Of a stretch of DNA of 37,902 bases, positions 6,406-27,586 are shown in pieces. The translations under genes and the position numbers were made by a program. This DNA comes from Candidatus Treponema caballi (GTDB lineage Bacteria > Spirochaetota > Spirochaetia > Treponematales > Treponemataceae): contig JAGHRS010000040.1 of assembly GCA_018066285.1 (NCBI GenBank), positions 1 to 37,902 of the forward strand, read 5' to 3'. Within the stretch, counting starts at the first letter, position 1. Every line of letters starts with the position of its first letter. The notes beneath the pieces are model-generated. The model was not told where the DNA came from, ran no database searches, and saw only the letters and a list, made by a program, of their open reading frames with translations.

Positions 6406-7316
6406 CCACGCGGCGCTTTTGCAGGGTCTATGATTTTTCCGTTATCGTAAACCATCAGGTTTATCTGGGATTTACCGCTCAACGCATCTGTTCCCGTCAC
6501 ACCGATTTTTGTTCCATAAGCAACATCGTCGCCTTTTGAAACAGAAACGGAATCGAGTCCTGCATACACGTAGATATATCCCTTATCATCCTGCACAAAG
6601 ACCACTTTTCCAAAACCGCGGTACACGCCTGAGAACATGACTGTTCCCTTGTGGATAGCGTTAACAGCCTCGTTTTTTGCAGCTGTAAGTGCAACGCCGC
6701 TTATCTTTCCCGTAATATAGACGACTTCGCTTGCCTTTACCGGCCAGACAAGAGATGTATCACCTTTCTTGCCAGCTTCATATGTGCGCGGATCTGACTG
6801 TGTTGAAAGCGTTATGGCAGCTCCCGCAGATGCAGTAGCGGTTGCAGTAATGGTTGTTGTTGTGACTGTCTGTGTTGCAGCTGCTGTCTGAATTTCTGAA
6901 GTGGCACTTCCACCTGGCAGTTTTATAACCTGTCCGACTTTCAGGACAGTTGCTTCCGTAAATCCGTTGAGGGAACGGACTTCATCCACCGTCGTCCCGT
7001 TTTTGCGTGCTATGCTGTACAGTGTGTCGCCTTTTGCAACCGTATAGTTTTCTGTTGATACTGATGAAGTGGCAGGCGTTTCATCACCTGGAACCGTAAG
7101 TTTCTGCCCGGCTTTAAGGACAGCTCCCTGCTCAAGATTATTGGCCTTTAAAAGTTCATCTACAGTTATACCGTAGGAACGGGAAATGGAATAGAATGTT
7201 TCACCTTTTTCGACGACATGTGTTTCAGCAGAAAGGGAAAGAACTGCTGTGATTAAAAGAATAACACAAACTGATATTTTTTTTGCGACACTCATACTGT
7301 ATGAGTATCGGCACAT
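6402..7316 (-). CDS. LysM protein with degenerate LytM (M23-like) domain
   Basis: This is an exported envelope protein. A signal peptide (about residues 8-30) is followed by two LysM peptidoglycan-binding repeats (about 32-77 and 91-135, each with the GDTLYSIARK or GETFYSISRS pattern). A Thr/Ala-rich linker and a C-terminal domain with the fold signatures of M23 peptidases follow (RGFGKVVFVQ, YIYVYAGLDSVSVSKGDDV, GKIIDPA). All zinc ligands appear lost: the usual HxxxD is absent, YAHL reads YAGL and HLHF reads INLMV. The protein is therefore probably not a peptidase. By analogy with EnvC/NlpD it may be a regulator of cell-wall hydrolases, which is inference. The start lies 5 bases after the preceding HD-domain gene. 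ATG at 7295 is an equally good alternative start. Confidence 0.82.
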   Translation of the reverse strand: MCRYSYSMSVAKKISVCVILLITAVLSLSAETHVVEKGETFYSISRSYGITVDELLKANNLEQGAVLKAGQKLTVPGDETPATSSVSTENYTVAKGDTLYSIARKNGTTVDEVRSLNGFTEATVLKVGQVIKLPGGSATSEIQTAAATQTVTTTTITATATASAGAAITLSTQSDPRTYEAGKKGDTSLVWPVKASEVVYITGKISGVALTAAKNEAVNAIHKGTVMFSGVYRGFGKVVFVQDDKGYIYVYAGLDSVSVSKGDDVAYGTKIGVTGTDALSGKSQINLMVYDNGKIIDPAKAPRG

Positions 7317-7321
7317 TTATG

Positions 7322-8599
7322 CTAATCAAACAGAGCAAAAAATGCGCTTGGAACAAAGCCGTTTACACTGCTCTTTTCCGCATAGATTTTGCAGATGTTG
7401 TCCCGACCGTCACGAAGATGAACGGAAGTGATGCCGTATTTTATGGAACTGTCAGCCTCAATGAAAGCAGCTATGTGGTCGGCACAGCGGACAAGTTTTC
7501 CATCAACAGGACAATAGCGCTCATCATTGAACTTGGCATTCATATCCTCAAACGTAACGTGTTCAAGAGAATAGGCATACTTTGAACTGTTGCACTCTTT
7601 CTTTCCAGGGACATCAAATTCGAGCTGCGGCAGGACGATGCGGTTTTCAAACTCATCGCTCGTAAAGTACATCATCTCGTCTGAGTAGAAGCTTTCCATG
7701 AGCGGCAGAAGTTCCTTGCGGACAATCTCATCCTCAATGTTCTTGACGATTGACGGCAGCTCGTGAGTCGCCTGCTTTACCGGAGAAATGATGTCACGTG
7801 TTACCGCTTCCGGAAGGTCATGGAACAGCGCAGAGAAGAAGTTGTTGTACAGTCTGTTTTTGCAGAATTCAACATCATCCTGGCGGCTCAGCATGAGCGT
7901 CATGGCTGCAACATAGTATGAATGACCAAGGACTGAAGTTTTCGGAACGCGCGGTGTCTGATTCCATCTTGTCTGGAAACGGAGCTGCTCAATAATCATC
8001 AGGAATTCATACGGACGCTGTTTTGTGAGCAGCAGCTGAAGGCCGCGAAGGTCAAGGAAAGACTCAATGTCTTCATTAAGCTGCTTTTCAATGTTTCTTA
8101 TACGGAACGGCTCGTTAACGACCTTTATCATCTCAAACTCGCGCATGGCGCTGTATTTGTGTGCAGCACGCATGACGCGGGATGAACGCTCACGGGCTTT
8201 TGTCTCGGGTTCAGTGGGACATGCCATGTCCTTATGTTCGATATATTCCTTGAACTGAGTGAAAAGGTCCTTATCCAGGATGTCCTTGTATTGGGAAAGA
8301 ACCCACTTCTCAAGCTTTTTGTACTCTGCCGGATACTCGTTTTTTATCATGCGCTGCACAGGTGACTTAATGTCACACAGCGCAATTTTCTTTAAGAGAT
8401 CGAAAAAGGATGCATAAATCATCCAGTTCCAGTCAATTTCGTTTCCGGCATTTTCCTCGTACTTACCGATTATGTAGGCAAGCACCATACGCTCGGCAGC
8501 CTTATCCATCTCTATCATTTCACAGGGACGGATAAGGTCATTCCAGCGTTCTATTGAGAAAGCTTCAAAAAGTTTGAGTGCGAGTTCTTTAGTCAGCAT
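7322..8599 (-). CDS. YfbR-like HD-domain nucleotidase
   Basis: This 425-residue protein has an HD domain in its C-terminal half. The motifs are GHSYYVA, FHDLPEAVTRDIISPVK and VRCADHIAAFIEA, which resemble the YfbR-type 5'-deoxynucleotidase pattern (H...HD, Glu within the HD motif, distal Asp). YfbR enzymes dephosphorylate deoxyribonucleoside monophosphates. The N-terminal 190 residues (LFEAFSIERWNDLIRP onward) add helical sequence of unclear role. The ATG overlaps the TGA of the upstream permease by one base, so it is translationally coupled to the purine-nucleoside transporter. That suggests a role in nucleotide salvage. Substrate assignment is by motif resemblance only. Confidence 0.75.
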   Translation of the reverse strand: MLTKELALKLFEAFSIERWNDLIRPCEMIEMDKAAERMVLAYIIGKYEENAGNEIDWNWMIYASFFDLLKKIALCDIKSPVQRMIKNEYPAEYKKLEKWVLSQYKDILDKDLFTQFKEYIEHKDMACPTEPETKARERSSRVMRAAHKYSAMREFEMIKVVNEPFRIRNIEKQLNEDIESFLDLRGLQLLLTKQRPYEFLMIIEQLRFQTRWNQTPRVPKTSVLGHSYYVAAMTLMLSRQDDVEFCKNRLYNNFFSALFHDLPEAVTRDIISPVKQATHELPSIVKNIEDEIVRKELLPLMESFYSDEMMYFTSDEFENRIVLPQLEFDVPGKKECNSSKYAYSLEHVTFEDMNAKFNDERYCPVDGKLVRCADHIAAFIEADSSIKYGITSVHLRDGRDNICKIYAEKSSVNGFVPSAFFALFD

Positions 8600-9507
8600 C
8601 AGCTGGCGCCTTTCTCGTATGGCTTACCGTCTGCTGCAGGTGCATAATCGCGGCCTGAGAAGATGATGAGCGCAAGGAGCGTAATCACATATGGGAATAT
8701 GTTGAAAATCTCTGTTGGAAGCACGCGCAGTGACTGGAAGTTCGTAGCGATGACACTCATAGCCGAAGAGGCGCCGAAAAGCAGCGCAGCACCGGTTACA
8801 CCAAGTGGTGTCCAGCGGCCGAATGCGACGGCGGCAATGGCGATGAATCCGCGTCCGTTGATGGTGTTTGACGTATACTGGATTGTCTGCGTCAGTACGA
8901 TGCAGCCGCCGGCGAGTCCTGAAAGGAAGCCTGAAACTGCAACGCCCGTGTAGCGGATGCCCCGTACGTTGATACCAACGCTGTCAGCTGCTGCAGGATG
9001 CTCACCGCACGCTCTGAGGTGCATGCCAAACGGCGTCTTGTACAGCACAAACCACGCAAGCACGACAACGATGATTGCGATATAGACTGTCGGATACATA
9101 CCGAGCTTATCAGTCAGCATACCGATGCGGTATTCCTTTGTGCGGTCAGCCTTGAACAGAATCTGTGATGCGAAAATCGTGATTCCGTCTGCAAGCAGGT
9201 TGATACCCGTACCAGAAATGGTCTGGTCTGCCTTCAGGTCAATGGCGGCGAACGCATGAATCAGTGAGAACAGCGCAGAAATGACACAGCCAAGCAGGAG
9301 CGCCACCCAGATGCTGTAACGACCGCAACCGGCTGCTTCCATGAGATAGTGACAGGAAGCGCAGGCACAGGCACCAATGCCCATAAGACCTTCAATTGCG
9401 ATATTAACAACGCCGGAGCGTTCACAGACCATTCCGCCGATTGCTGCAATCAGAATAGGAGCAACCATCATAAGGACGGTTGGAAGCGTATTGATAAACA
9501 TCATCAT
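8599..9507 (-). CDS. pnrE: Purine-nucleoside ABC transporter permease 2
   Basis: This 302-residue inner-membrane permease of the BPD_transp_2 (RbsC/YufQ-like) family has about eight hydrophobic segments and the signature GMHLRACGEHPAAADSVGINV, typical of the coupling region that contacts the ATPase. With the neighbouring permease, ATPase and lipoprotein it should form a nucleoside importer. It starts with an ATGA overlap on the preceding permease, with AGGAGG 10 bases upstream. The first three codons are ATG, so the exact start could be one or two codons later. The pnr name is by analogy with the T. pallidum system and letter assignment is approximate. Confidence 0.88.
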   Translation of the reverse strand: MMMFINTLPTVLMMVAPILIAAIGGMVCERSGVVNIAIEGLMGIGACACASCHYLMEAAGCGRYSIWVALLLGCVISALFSLIHAFAAIDLKADQTISGTGINLLADGITIFASQILFKADRTKEYRIGMLTDKLGMYPTVYIAIIVVVLAWFVLYKTPFGMHLRACGEHPAAADSVGINVRGIRYTGVAVSGFLSGLAGGCIVLTQTIQYTSNTINGRGFIAIAAVAFGRWTPLGVTGAALLFGASSAMSVIATNFQSLRVLPTEIFNIFPYVITLLALIIFSGRDYAPAADGKPYEKGAS

Positions 9508-23612: not shown

Positions 23613-26036
23613 CTACAGAAAACGCTCTATCGTACCAAGAACTATCTTAAGCGGCGCAAAACACTGCTTTGTTTCAGGAATACTCTCAATAAACATCCTT
23701 CCGTAATTCTTTTTCAGAAGCCTTCCGTCAAGAATTGTGACAGCTCCCCTATCTGTTGCACGACGCATAAGACGACCAAATCCCTGCCTGAAGTGTATGA
23801 TTGCTTCCGGTACACTCAATTCAAAAAATGAGGAACCTCCCCTCTTTTCAATATCTTCAGAACGCGCTGCAAAAACCGGATCACTGGGAACAGGGAACGG
23901 CAGTTTTACTATAACAACATGAGAAAGCGATTCTCCAGGGACATCGACTCCTTCCCAGAAAGAATCTGTTGCAAACAGCACACTTGCGCTGTCGGTACGG
24001 AACTGTTCAAGCAGACGGAAACGGTCGTCATCTCCCTGCTTCAACACCGTAATTCCGCTTGATGCAAGAGCTGTACGCGCATGATTACAAGCGTACTTGA
24101 GCGAATCGTACGAGGTAAAGAGCACGAGACAGCGTCCCTGCGATGCACGGATAAGCTCTACAATCGTATTTTCAAGCCAGGACTGATAACCGTAATTCTT
24201 GGGATCAGGAGCGTCCGCCACAATGGAAAGCAGTACATTCGTACGATATGGAAAGGGCGACGGAAACACGCCTTCACAGACGCGCTCTTTCTCAGCAAAC
24301 TGCACACCGGTCCGCTTTTTCCAGAACTGAAAGCTTCCCGCAGTCTTGAGCGTTGCGGACGTACAGACAACACTGGAAAGCGGCTCAAAAACTCCCGAAT
24401 ACATGGTACTTGATATATCAAGCGGCGTTTCAATAAATCCAGGGAAGAACGTGCCATTACTGAGCCTTCTTTTCTCCATCCAGAAAATCATGTCATCATG
24501 CTCACTCCAGTCAACAAAATGCTGGCAGACAGCACCGCAGTTTTCAATGCGTTTCACAATCTGGCGGCATTCCCAGACAGACGGAGCTTCTTCCTGATCT
24601 TCAGGCACACTATCGAGCATGGTACGCATTCTGCCCGCGAAAGCCGCAATAGCGCCACGCAGCGTCTGCATTTTTGAAAGAATTCCTTCTGCACTTGCCG
24701 CAGTTCCAGGTTCAAGCCGCCATGTATAGCCGTCGCCAAGTACCTTCATCGCTTCATCTTCAAGTTCCATAAGAGAAACTTTAATGTCATCCAGAAAGCC
24801 AATTACTTCCTGTACATCAACTTCCGCAGATGTAAGAGCATCTATGGTAAAAAGAAGGCCAGCTTTAGAACCGCGACGCTGCTTGTACAGCAGATTCAGC
24901 TGTTTCTGCAGGCGGTATCTGTTGATCGTTTCAGAAAAGAAGCTCGTTGCCGCATCTTCAATACCATGCGCCTCATCAAACACAAGATGCTGATACGGCG
25001 GAAGCACGGCAGTATCTTCATAACCAGCCCCACCCTGCCGCATTTCAATATCTGCAAACAGAAGGTGATGATTGACAATGATGAGCTGCGCGTCAGCAGC
25101 CTCCTTCCTGAGGCGCATGACAAAGCACTCTTCCCTATACGGGCACTTCATTCCCATACAGGCGTCTGATTCGGAGTTGATCCGAGACCATATTCCCTCA
25201 GAAGGCATGAACGTCAGCTCAGAACGCGTTCCTGTTTCCGTTGTCCTGAGCCAGGCTGCAATTGCATCAAGTTCTTCCGTTTCCTCTGTAAAAAGGTCAC
25301 GTTCGCTTGTAACATCAGCAAAACGGCGTCGGCAGATGTAGTTCTGCCTTCCTTTCAAAAGGATGTATTTTATGTCCGTTCCCAGCATTTTCTGTGCAGC
25401 AGGCACATCCTTTTCTGCCAGTTGCTGCTGCAGGTTTATTGTTCCCGTAGACACAACAACGCGTTCATTATTTTCCTTTATCCAGAGGAGAGCCGGAATC
25501 AGATAGGCAAAAGACTTTCCAACGCCGGTTCCCGCTTCAAAAACGCCAAGAGTTCCGTCATTGAAAACAGAACAGATGTTTTTTACCAGTGAGATTTGAG
25601 AGGGACGCTCTTCATAAAAACTGTCCTTTTGAGCAAGCGGGCCTTCAGCAGATAAATACCAGGCAGCTTTCTCAGCATCAAGACGGCGGATGGAGCGCAG
25701 CTTTATCGGTTCAACAACTGCGTTTATACGGGTTACATCATTATTGATTATATAAAAGCCTTTTGCGTCGGCAGCTGCGCGGCTGGCTATTTCAAGATCA
25801 GCTTCGGAAGGTTCAAGGACGCCTGACGGATGATTGTGGATAAGCACATGACACTCCGTCCTGTGCAGGGTAAGCGGAGCGGCACAGTCACTGCCTCTTG
25901 AACCGATAACAGCTGATACTACAACGCCTTCAGGATTCACCAGTCCATACGCACTGATTTCATTCCCGCTGTTATCAGCAATCGCTTCTTTGAGTAACCG
26001 GATAACGTTATCCGACAGTTTTGATTCTACTTTCAC
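23613..26036 (-). CDS. JAMM (RadC/JAB-like) domain fused to a DinG/XPD-type helicase
   Basis: This 807-residue fusion starts with a JAMM/RadC-like domain (about residues 1-125). Its metal motif is complete: HNHPSG, then EPSEAD (His67, His69, Ser77, Asp80), with Glu26 as the likely upstream catalytic Glu. From about residue 145 it is a DinG/XPD superfamily 2 helicase with Walker A EAGTGVGKS, DEAH box VFDEAHGIED, four cysteines placed as for an iron-sulfur cluster (YIC, DACMGMKC, EEC) and motif VI QGFGRLMRR. A role in unwinding DNA or R-loops in replication or repair is likely. The function of the JAMM part is unknown. Start GTG at 26036 follows GGGGTGG. Upstream in-frame codons run into the tRNA terminator. 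Confidence 0.9.
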   Translation of the reverse strand: MKVESKLSDNVIRLLKEAIADNSGNEISAYGLVNPEGVVVSAVIGSRGSDCAAPLTLHRTECHVLIHNHPSGVLEPSEADLEIASRAAADAKGFYIINNDVTRINAVVEPIKLRSIRRLDAEKAAWYLSAEGPLAQKDSFYEERPSQISLVKNICSVFNDGTLGVFEAGTGVGKSFAYLIPALLWIKENNERVVVSTGTINLQQQLAEKDVPAAQKMLGTDIKYILLKGRQNYICRRRFADVTSERDLFTEETEELDAIAAWLRTTETGTRSELTFMPSEGIWSRINSESDACMGMKCPYREECFVMRLRKEAADAQLIIVNHHLLFADIEMRQGGAGYEDTAVLPPYQHLVFDEAHGIEDAATSFFSETINRYRLQKQLNLLYKQRRGSKAGLLFTIDALTSAEVDVQEVIGFLDDIKVSLMELEDEAMKVLGDGYTWRLEPGTAASAEGILSKMQTLRGAIAAFAGRMRTMLDSVPEDQEEAPSVWECRQIVKRIENCGAVCQHFVDWSEHDDMIFWMEKRRLSNGTFFPGFIETPLDISSTMYSGVFEPLSSVVCTSATLKTAGSFQFWKKRTGVQFAEKERVCEGVFPSPFPYRTNVLLSIVADAPDPKNYGYQSWLENTIVELIRASQGRCLVLFTSYDSLKYACNHARTALASSGITVLKQGDDDRFRLLEQFRTDSASVLFATDSFWEGVDVPGESLSHVVIVKLPFPVPSDPVFAARSEDIEKRGGSSFFELSVPEAIIHFRQGFGRLMRRATDRGAVTILDGRLLKKNYGRMFIESIPETKQCFAPLKIVLGTIERFL

Positions 26037-26060
26037 AAGCCACCCCACTACGTAAAAGCA

Positions 26061-26100
26061 AAAAAGAAGAAAAAAAAAGGACTGGATAATCACCAGTCCT
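26061..26100 (-). terminator. Terminator after tRNA-Glu
   Basis: An 8-bp stem (AGGACTGG / CCAGTCCT, 26078-26085 and 26093-26100) is followed on the minus strand by a long, T-rich tail from 26078 down to 26061. It ends the tRNA transcript about 24 bases before the helicase start codon. Confidence 0.87.
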
Positions 26101-26108
26101 TATGCTCG

Positions 26109-26180
26109 CATCTCCCGGGGGAATTGAACCCCCGTTGTCGGGATGAAAACCCGATGTCCTAACCACTAGACGAGGGAGAC
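26109..26180 (-). tRNA. tRNA-Glu (anticodon TTC)
   Basis: A 72-base cloverleaf is read on the minus strand. Acceptor GTCTCCC pairs with GGGAGAT (one G-T pair), the discriminator is G, and the D-arm contains CTAGTGGTTAGGAC. The anticodon stem TCGGG / CCCGA holds the loop TTTTCAT (anticodon TTC), and the T-arm reads GGGGGTTCAATTCCCCC. No CCA is encoded, so it is added after transcription. Confidence 0.95.
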
Positions 26181-26234: not shown

Positions 26235-27530
26235 TTAAAATTTCATCTCTTTTTGTGCAGAAAGCAGTTTTTCAAGTTTCTGCGTGTCTTCATTATCAAG
26301 TCCAAGCTTATGAGCCTTCACCATATCTTCTGCAGCTGCTTCATAGTTGCACATGTAATAATGGGTAAGAGCACGTCTGTAAAGTACATGAGACTGATAC
26401 TCGTTTCTCTCGAGGGATTTGGTGAAATACTCGATTGCACCTTCGTTATCCCCCTGAAGACCGTATACAATACCAATATAGTAAAAGGAACGGAAATTGG
26501 TATCATCTTTTTTCACACTTTCCATAAAATCAGAAAGTGCTTCCTCAAATTTATTCTGGGCAAAATACGCCATGCCGCGATGTTTATAGATTACAGAAAG
26601 CACAATATTGTTTGGCTGTGGTTCCGCATTTATAATCATCGTATAAATGTCTTCCGCCTTATCAAGATCTCCAGAATTATGTGCATGAATTGCATCAAGA
26701 ATCATGTCATCAATTGTTCCACGAACATATGGCATTTCTGAGTTTATGGATCCTGTAGGTTGAATTGGTTTTACAGCTTTCTGCGATGCGTCTGCATTTA
26801 CATTCAGCCGTTCATTCAGCTGATTTCTTACAAGAACATCAGCTTTTTCATAGAACGTCGCGCGGCGCGCATCAAGTTCCTGATTAAGCTTGTTCTGATA
26901 ATCGCGGATTTCCTGGAATATGATGTCAGCAAGGCTCAAACTTGCGTTGACAGAGGCAAGCTTTCTTCTGAGCGGCTTGTCAAACGGAGAAAACTCTGAT
27001 TTATAAACCAGCTCATGTTCAACTTCAGCCCATGCATCCTGCAGAATCGTTCTTATCTGAAGTTCACACACAAGTCCTTCCGGCAGCTGGATACGTTCAT
27101 CCTTTCCGCCCATATCAGCTATTTTTTCCGGAATCTTTATCAGAATATGCAGAGATTCATAGCCAAATTCGCTGAACGTACGCTCAGACCCTTTTCTTTC
27201 AATCTCAACAACTTCGAAGTTTTCACAGATTGTTTTCTGAACCTGGGCCAGATCTTCAAGAAATGCACAGATAATTCTTATTCCTATCAAATCTGTCAAA
27301 ACAGGAAGTGGCTGCCTTCCCAAAGATTCCGGCTGTATCCGGATCAACTTTTCATAGTAGCTTTCAAATGATTTGACTCTTGATTTATAAGATGGTGTTG
27401 AACCAAGCTTTATCACCGCTTTTACAGTATTCAAGACACCATAAAGAACGGCCTGCAATACAGGACGGCTTTTTTCATATGCTGCGAGTAAGTCTTCCTT
27501 TGGAGGAATCTGTTTATCCTTTATCTGCAT
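26235..27530 (-). CDS. RelA/SpoT-domain protein with C-terminal TPR repeats
   Basis: This 431-residue cytoplasmic protein has an N-terminal RelA/SpoT synthetase-like domain (about residues 25-190) and a TPR array (about 240-420). Conserved elements include YKSRVKSFESYYEKL, DLIGIRI (80-85), FGYESLHILIKIP (the G-loop Tyr and the SLH motif) and CELQIRTILQDAWAEVEHE. No HD hydrolase, TGS or ACT domain is present, so it is a stand-alone synthetase-type protein rather than a long RSH. It probably makes (p)ppGpp or a related nucleotide, with TPRs mediating partner binding. The start is ATG at 27530. An in-frame GTG 33 bases upstream has weaker support. tRNA-Glu follows it. Confidence 0.87.
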   Translation of the reverse strand: MQIKDKQIPPKEDLLAAYEKSRPVLQAVLYGVLNTVKAVIKLGSTPSYKSRVKSFESYYEKLIRIQPESLGRQPLPVLTDLIGIRIICAFLEDLAQVQKTICENFEVVEIERKGSERTFSEFGYESLHILIKIPEKIADMGGKDERIQLPEGLVCELQIRTILQDAWAEVEHELVYKSEFSPFDKPLRRKLASVNASLSLADIIFQEIRDYQNKLNQELDARRATFYEKADVLVRNQLNERLNVNADASQKAVKPIQPTGSINSEMPYVRGTIDDMILDAIHAHNSGDLDKAEDIYTMIINAEPQPNNIVLSVIYKHRGMAYFAQNKFEEALSDFMESVKKDDTNFRSFYYIGIVYGLQGDNEGAIEYFTKSLERNEYQSHVLYRRALTHYYMCNYEAAAEDMVKAHKLGLDNEDTQKLEKLLSAQKEMKF

Positions 27531-27586
27531 AATAAAAGTGTACCATTGTTTCCGTCCTAGCACAATGACACAATCCGTTCAAAGCG

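Follow-up and report, generated by a model that had tools for sequence, protein, structure and literature searches.

Fusions of a RadC domain to a DinG/RAD3 helicase were mentioned by Iyer et al. (2017; PMC5512222), and from this and other fusions the Aravind group proposed a nuclease function for the RadC clade (PMC5512222), a proposal repeated in a 2012 publication (PMC3482391). RadC-clade JABs were also reported to lack a groove for the ubiquitin tail (PMC5512222). The name 'RadC-like DinG' was introduced by Cheng (2025; PMC11981726, section 3.8), with a protein of Desulfuromonas soudanensis as the model; four putative catalytic residues and a similarity to JAMM proteases were noted, DALI gave no likeness of the RadC-like domain to nucleases, and the subgroup was stated to be unresearched. 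Nucleases are found at the same N-terminal position in other DinGs (PMC5512222; PMC11981726), and a pExoDinG class is listed as well (Cheng 2025; PMC11981726). In a separate system, the helicase FANCJ translocates into a protein crosslinked to DNA and unfolds it, so that the protease SPRTN can cut (PMC12279946).

RadC-clade JAMM domains are widespread and are the subject of two competing predictions, protease and nuclease; a fusion to DinG couples one of these domains to a motor whose type is known. Here, we analyse a JAMM-DinG gene in a 37,902-nucleotide stretch of DNA (hereafter the window). An earlier note, made from the window's sequence alone, had left room for the fusion being undescribed; the architecture was already known (PMC5512222; PMC11981726), and what we add is the co-inheritance of its two parts, the pattern of loss, catalytically dead variants, a motif difference from RadC, and genomes that carry the fusion without detectable E1 or ubiquitin-like (Ubl) genes.

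The fusion gene and its two halves

JAMM-DinG is encoded on the minus strand, a detail that the earlier note had not given, and the plus strand of the same segment is riddled with stops and non-coding (Table 1). The single 807-residue frame claimed from position 26036 is indeed free of internal stops, and its full length agrees with that of relatives. The longest open form of the frame, 23613-26093 (minus strand, 826 aa), begins at an upstream GTG; because the terminator of the upstream tRNA-Glu falls within this longer 5' form, the GTG at 26036 is the likelier start. The terminator stops about 40 bases ahead of that start, and no sigma-70-like promoter was found between the tRNA gene and the start. 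In its own genome (2.91 Mb, 99.8% complete), JAMM-DinG is present in a single copy (self match 100%) and is the sole helicase above the Helicase_C_2 cut-off. A frameshift or assembly error separating the two domains, which the earlier note had considered, is rejected, since the JAMM domain lies inside the same long single helicase frame (about 810-900 aa) in about 130 of 296 spirochaete genomes (a count from the match table, in which a few frames are cut by contig ends) as well as in other phyla.

Table 1. Features of the JAMM-DinG locus, in window coordinates.
Feature	Position	Strand	Details
JAMM-DinG fusion gene (RadC-like DinG)	23613..26036	(-)	807 aa + stop, GTG start; open frame
N-terminal JAMM (RadC-like) domain, residues ~1-112	25701..26036	(-)	Pfam RadC, AlphaFold fold, structural matches
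JAMM catalytic set	25797..25961	(-)	E26, H67, H69, S77, D80
E26	25961-25959	(-)	
H67	25838-25836	(-)	
H69	25832-25830	(-)	
S77	25808-25806	(-)	
D80	25799-25797	(-)	
Inter-domain linker, residues 113-140	25617..25700	(-)	retained in JAMM-less relatives
FeS SF2 helicase (DinG/YoaA type), residues 141-807	23616..25616	(-)	Pfam, NCBIfam, Foldseek
Walker A GTGVGKS, residues 169-175	25512..25532	(-)	G171, G173, K174 invariant
FeS-cluster segment, C235, C293, C298, C304	25125..25334	(-)	four Cys invariant in 40-sequence alignment
DEAH box, residues 354-357	24966..24977	(-)	invariant in 40-sequence alignment
Motif VI QGFGRLMR, residues 751-758	23763..23786	(-)	Q751, G752, G754, R755, R758 invariant
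Intrinsic terminator of upstream tRNA-Glu	26077-26101	(-)	stem, dG -14.1 kcal/mol, z -3.5
tRNA-Glu (TTC)	26108-26180	(-)	upstream of JAMM-DinG

The N-terminal part matches Pfam RadC (PF04002) at 24.7 bits against a cut-off of 22.1, a match that covers only profile positions 62-93. All elements by which JAMM/MPN+ enzymes are recognized are present, i.e. the E ... HxH-x10-D signature with exact spacing (E26, H67-N-H69, and ten residues to D80), the catalytic serine (S77) and the MPN fold; the full metal motif with its upstream glutamate and the RadC-like partner in place of DnaQ, both put forward in the earlier note, are therefore borne out. Modelled alone by AlphaFold, residues 1-140 reach a pLDDT of 94.6, and this model matches RadC (2qlc), AfJAMM and PfJAMM1 in Foldseek, and CsRpn11 (Z 10.7), BubCD (Z 10.7), PfJAMM1 and Rpn11 (Z ~10-10.7 for the latter two) in VIA-align. 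The predicted structure of residues 1-140 is a JAMM fold, and the suspicion that residues 1-125 might lack one can be set aside. Those structural matches that have a solved function (PfJAMM1, CsRpn11, Rpn11 and AMSH) are peptidases or isopeptidases; no nuclease is listed among the fold-search matches, a result that is nonetheless compatible with a nuclease.

Across 40 deeply diverged spirochaete relatives (found by the whole domain rather than by the motif, and with one decayed-site locus, L050, deliberately left out), E26, H67, H69, S77 and D80 are invariant, level with the ATPase motifs, which implies catalysis. Among 115 JAMM-bearing DinGs, 114 keep E, H, H and D, the sole exception being L050 (genome G183). 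For the 80 loci from named genomes, which were found through the motif IHNHPSG, conservation of both histidines is biased and that of E26, S77 and D80 is not.

The helicase half scores 159 bits with Helicase_C_2 and 32 bits with DEAD, and its Walker A, DEAH and motif VI sequences and four [4Fe-4S] cysteines make it an intact iron-sulfur SF2 helicase of the DinG/YoaA type, as the earlier note had proposed. The whole-protein AlphaFold model (built with 40 relatives; pLDDT 90.2, pTM 0.84) matches Escherichia coli DinG (6fwr; Foldseek, E 8e-43). All helicase motifs, the four FeS cysteines and a C-terminal helix (residues 796-806) are shared with E. coli YoaA, the top NCBIfam match (555.7 bits); however, this score lies under the NF053712 equivalog cut-off of 680, the JAMM domain is additional, and the genome lacks HolC, whose presence alongside YoaA is the criterion of Cheng (2025), so the protein does not qualify as a YoaA equivalog. 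HolC (PF04364) had no match in any of 20 JAMM-DinG genomes, including this one, under a positive E. coli control, in agreement with Cheng (2025).

With an N-terminal RadC-like domain bearing E, H, H and D, a four-domain YoaA-like FeS helicase, the extra C-terminal helix and a genome without HolC, the protein belongs to the RadC-like DinGs, from which it shows no essential difference; the main text that defined them (PMC11981726) does not mention Spirochaetes. A role as a defence system was rejected, as only the helicase half matches the PADLOC type IV DinG models.

Distribution, co-inheritance and loss of the JAMM domain

The fusion is real, ancient and common to several bacterial phyla. Outside Spirochaetes it occurs in Geobacter, Desulfuromonas, KSB1, Calditrichaeota, Nitrospirae, Acidobacteria and Dadabacteria, with many of these records being metagenome bins. 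All 80 loci from named genomes encode the JAMM-helicase fusion, and this JAMM clade did not turn up free-standing among them or among the spirochaete matches, which implies action in cis. A search of 50,697 phage and 72,556 plasmid records returned no JAMM-domain match, and an origin as a phage or mobile-element gene was rejected on this basis. At two loci the frame remains open upstream of the JAMM domain without a Pfam match, by 666 residues (L084, 5003-7000) and 353 residues (L100, 3083-4141); these extensions are either an extra N-terminal part or merely non-coding read-through.

Identities between members in the JAMM part track those in the helicase part (r 0.85; maximum of 0.14 over 200 permutations), and the JAMM part and the motor are conserved to the same degree. 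This sequence comparison shows that the two parts are co-inherited and implies a joint function.

A search with the helicase half alone recovered many relatives whose DinGs (about 705-750 aa) lack the JAMM domain and have intact helicase motifs. In the family of the window's genome, such proteins begin aligning at residue 113-120, i.e. the linker has been kept and the JAMM domain removed. In a helicase-only tree of 149 proteins (a 'quick' tree), the JAMM label switches 14-16 times, with at least 10 of these switches forced by well supported branches, and JAMM-less proteins nest among JAMM-bearing ones, including the nearest neighbours of the window's protein. Because of this nesting and the retained linker, we infer that the direction of change is loss. 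As judged from these sequences, the JAMM activity is accessory: strong selection keeps it intact in most lineages, and others have dropped it.

Decay within the fusion is also seen. L050 (positions 6460-8979) is a treponeme JAMM-DinG whose metal site has decayed and whose helicase is intact, i.e. a natural dead mutant of the JAMM site. A DinG of Fusobacterium vincentii (L186, NZ_CP084075.1) has an N-terminal JAMM-like domain without the metal ligands (a weak domain match, 19.9 bits), paralleling the pseudo-exonuclease DinGs; the 2.1 Mb record is labelled as a plasmid and is probably a chromosome. Close relatives with and without the JAMM domain, together with dead-site variants, thus form natural controls in one bacterial family, so that a single purified protein and simple knock-outs would suffice to test JAMM function.

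Candidate activities of the JAMM domain

RadC is the nearest family of the JAMM domain by profile (hhalign 98.2%), and the two share the JAMM fold and the HNHPSGxxxPSxxD motif. Unlike RadC, JAMM-DinG has no separate N-terminal RadC region, is always fused to a helicase, and lacks the HPRE and DH motifs, which are invariant in 20 spirochaete RadCs and present in 0 of 115 JAMM-DinGs. The window's genome additionally encodes a separate canonical RadC (229 aa), so a mere transfer of RadC onto a helicase does not account for the fusion. The earlier suggestion that the fusion offers a clue to RadC therefore keeps its footing in the profile relationship and loses it in the motifs and the separate gene. 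Most JAMM-DinG genomes likewise encode a separate RadC, and the idea that RadC substitutes for a lost JAMM domain was rejected, RadC being common with or without JAMM-DinG. Three genomes of one family (G041, G048 and G136; family f24) have an unusually high number of RadC matches, 5 to 14 each, which suggests mobile-element expansion.

The reading that we favour, tentatively as a whole, is a chromosomal DinG/YoaA-type FeS helicase joined to a catalytically competent, metal-dependent JAMM hydrolase acting in cis with the motor. On the sequence evidence, the JAMM domain itself is probably such a hydrolase: its peptidase-type catalytic set, its absence as a free copy, its inheritance together with the motor and its independence from E1 and Ubl genes all fit this activity. 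Its substrate is possibly, by analogy, protein roadblocks bound or crosslinked to DNA. The motor would track 5'-3' on single-stranded DNA like other DinG/XPD helicases and, on meeting DNA-bound or DNA-crosslinked proteins, would strip or unfold them, whereupon the JAMM domain could cut the exposed polypeptide; one chain would then do the work of the FANCJ helicase and the SPRTN metalloprotease in eukaryotes. The likeness is one of logic only, an XPD-family helicase (FANCJ) paired with a metalloprotease; SPRTN is a separate protein and belongs to the SprT-type zinc proteases, which are not related to JAMM, making this an analogy and not protease homology. It is this precedent, together with the peptidase-type set, co-inheritance and E1/Ubl independence, that leads us to favour processing of DNA-bound or crosslinked proteins over the alternatives of nucleic-acid processing, a role in structure or regulation, and removal of ubiquitin-like modifiers. 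The strongest form of the proposal, a self-contained, ubiquitin-independent machine that tracks, unfolds and cuts at DNA-protein crosslinks or stalled proteins, is rather unlikely; if true, JAMM-DinG would be, to our knowledge, the first JAMM protease known in DNA repair that acts without a ubiquitin-like tag.

Several observations stand against the favoured reading. Crosslink repair is not indicated by any conserved gene partner, and the crosslink-forming protein SRAP (YedK/HMCES), tried as a sign of such repair, is nearly missing from the whole set of 54 genomes and shows no correlation with the JAMM domain, which makes it uninformative. Repeated JAMM loss shows that many species can do without the activity. 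The invariant Glu, Ser and HxH..D constitute the peptidase catalytic set of JAMM enzymes, and we are not aware of any JAMM nuclease demonstrated by experiment; these points weigh against a nuclease, or a processor of nucleic acids or nucleotides, that trims helicase-opened DNA in place of a DnaQ-like exonuclease or an endonuclease. That alternative, the foremost competitor and somewhat doubtful in our estimate, draws on the nucleases at the same DinG N-terminal position, those of ExoDinG and EndoDinG, which favour nucleic-acid processing (PMC5512222; PMC11981726), on the Aravind group's proposal for the RadC clade (PMC5512222; PMC3482391), on RadC being the nearest profile relative, and on the F. 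vincentii pseudo-JAMM, which parallels the pExoDinG class (Cheng 2025; PMC11981726). Against it, DALI returned no nuclease similarity (Cheng 2025; PMC11981726), and the solved structures closest to the domain in our searches are those of RadC and JAMM peptidases.

Stripping of ubiquitin-like modifiers off proteins at stalled forks, the helicase serving as targeting motor in the manner of Rpn11 on the proteasome motor, is very unlikely. Structural likeness to Rpn11, PfJAMM1 and bacterial BubCD would suit it, as would the ThiF and ThiS homologues that some JAMM-DinG genomes do encode. However, among 22 JAMM-DinG genomes examined, four from one family, all 99-100% complete and with an intact JAMM site, have no match to ThiF or ThiS, 13 have no ThiS match, and the window's own genome has only one ThiS match, below the cut-off. 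An intact site without detectable ThiF and ThiS speaks for some substrate that is not a ubiquitin-like tail; such tails are therefore unlikely as the general substrate, and the isopeptide hydrolysis raised in the earlier note is weakened as a general role. RadC-clade JABs are also reported to lack the ubiquitin-tail groove (PMC5512222), and no Ubl or E1 gene was found to recur beside JAMM-DinG. JAMM/MPN+ metalloproteases (AfJAMM, PfJAMM1 and Rpn11) share with JAMM-DinG the fold (Z 9.0-10.7) and the full catalytic set, and differ from it in that JAMM-DinG carries a minimal domain on a DNA helicase and shows no dependence on ubiquitin-like proteins. A mainly structural or regulatory JAMM domain (protein docking, metal sensing or autoinhibition), with catalytic chemistry secondary, is improbable as well. 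Dead versions that persist in frame in G183 and F. vincentii speak for it, as does retention of the helicase in lineages without the domain, but nothing in a purely structural role would require E, H, H and D to be kept in all but one of the JAMM-bearing DinGs, or S77 in 40 of 40.

Genes beside JAMM-DinG

No neighbour conserved across phyla was found beside JAMM-DinG, and a conserved operon partner was rejected, the neighbours being lineage-specific only. A PNP_UDP_1 nucleoside phosphorylase/nucleosidase is adjacent at 15 distant spirochaete loci (L045, L065, L036, L041, L062 and L067 among others), often directly upstream, with a median gap of 4 bp. Other lineage-specific neighbours are an acyltransferase in treponemes and two-component genes mainly in Desulfuromonadia; several neighbour clusters without a Pfam match may be antisense artefacts. 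One cluster that includes a gene of the window turns up repeatedly near JAMM-DinG, at about 13 loci (treponeme and related); its member in the window is probably the gene at 26235-27563 (minus strand), which encodes a RelA/SpoT-type synthetase domain followed by TPR repeats, resembling a small alarmone synthetase with a TPR tail.
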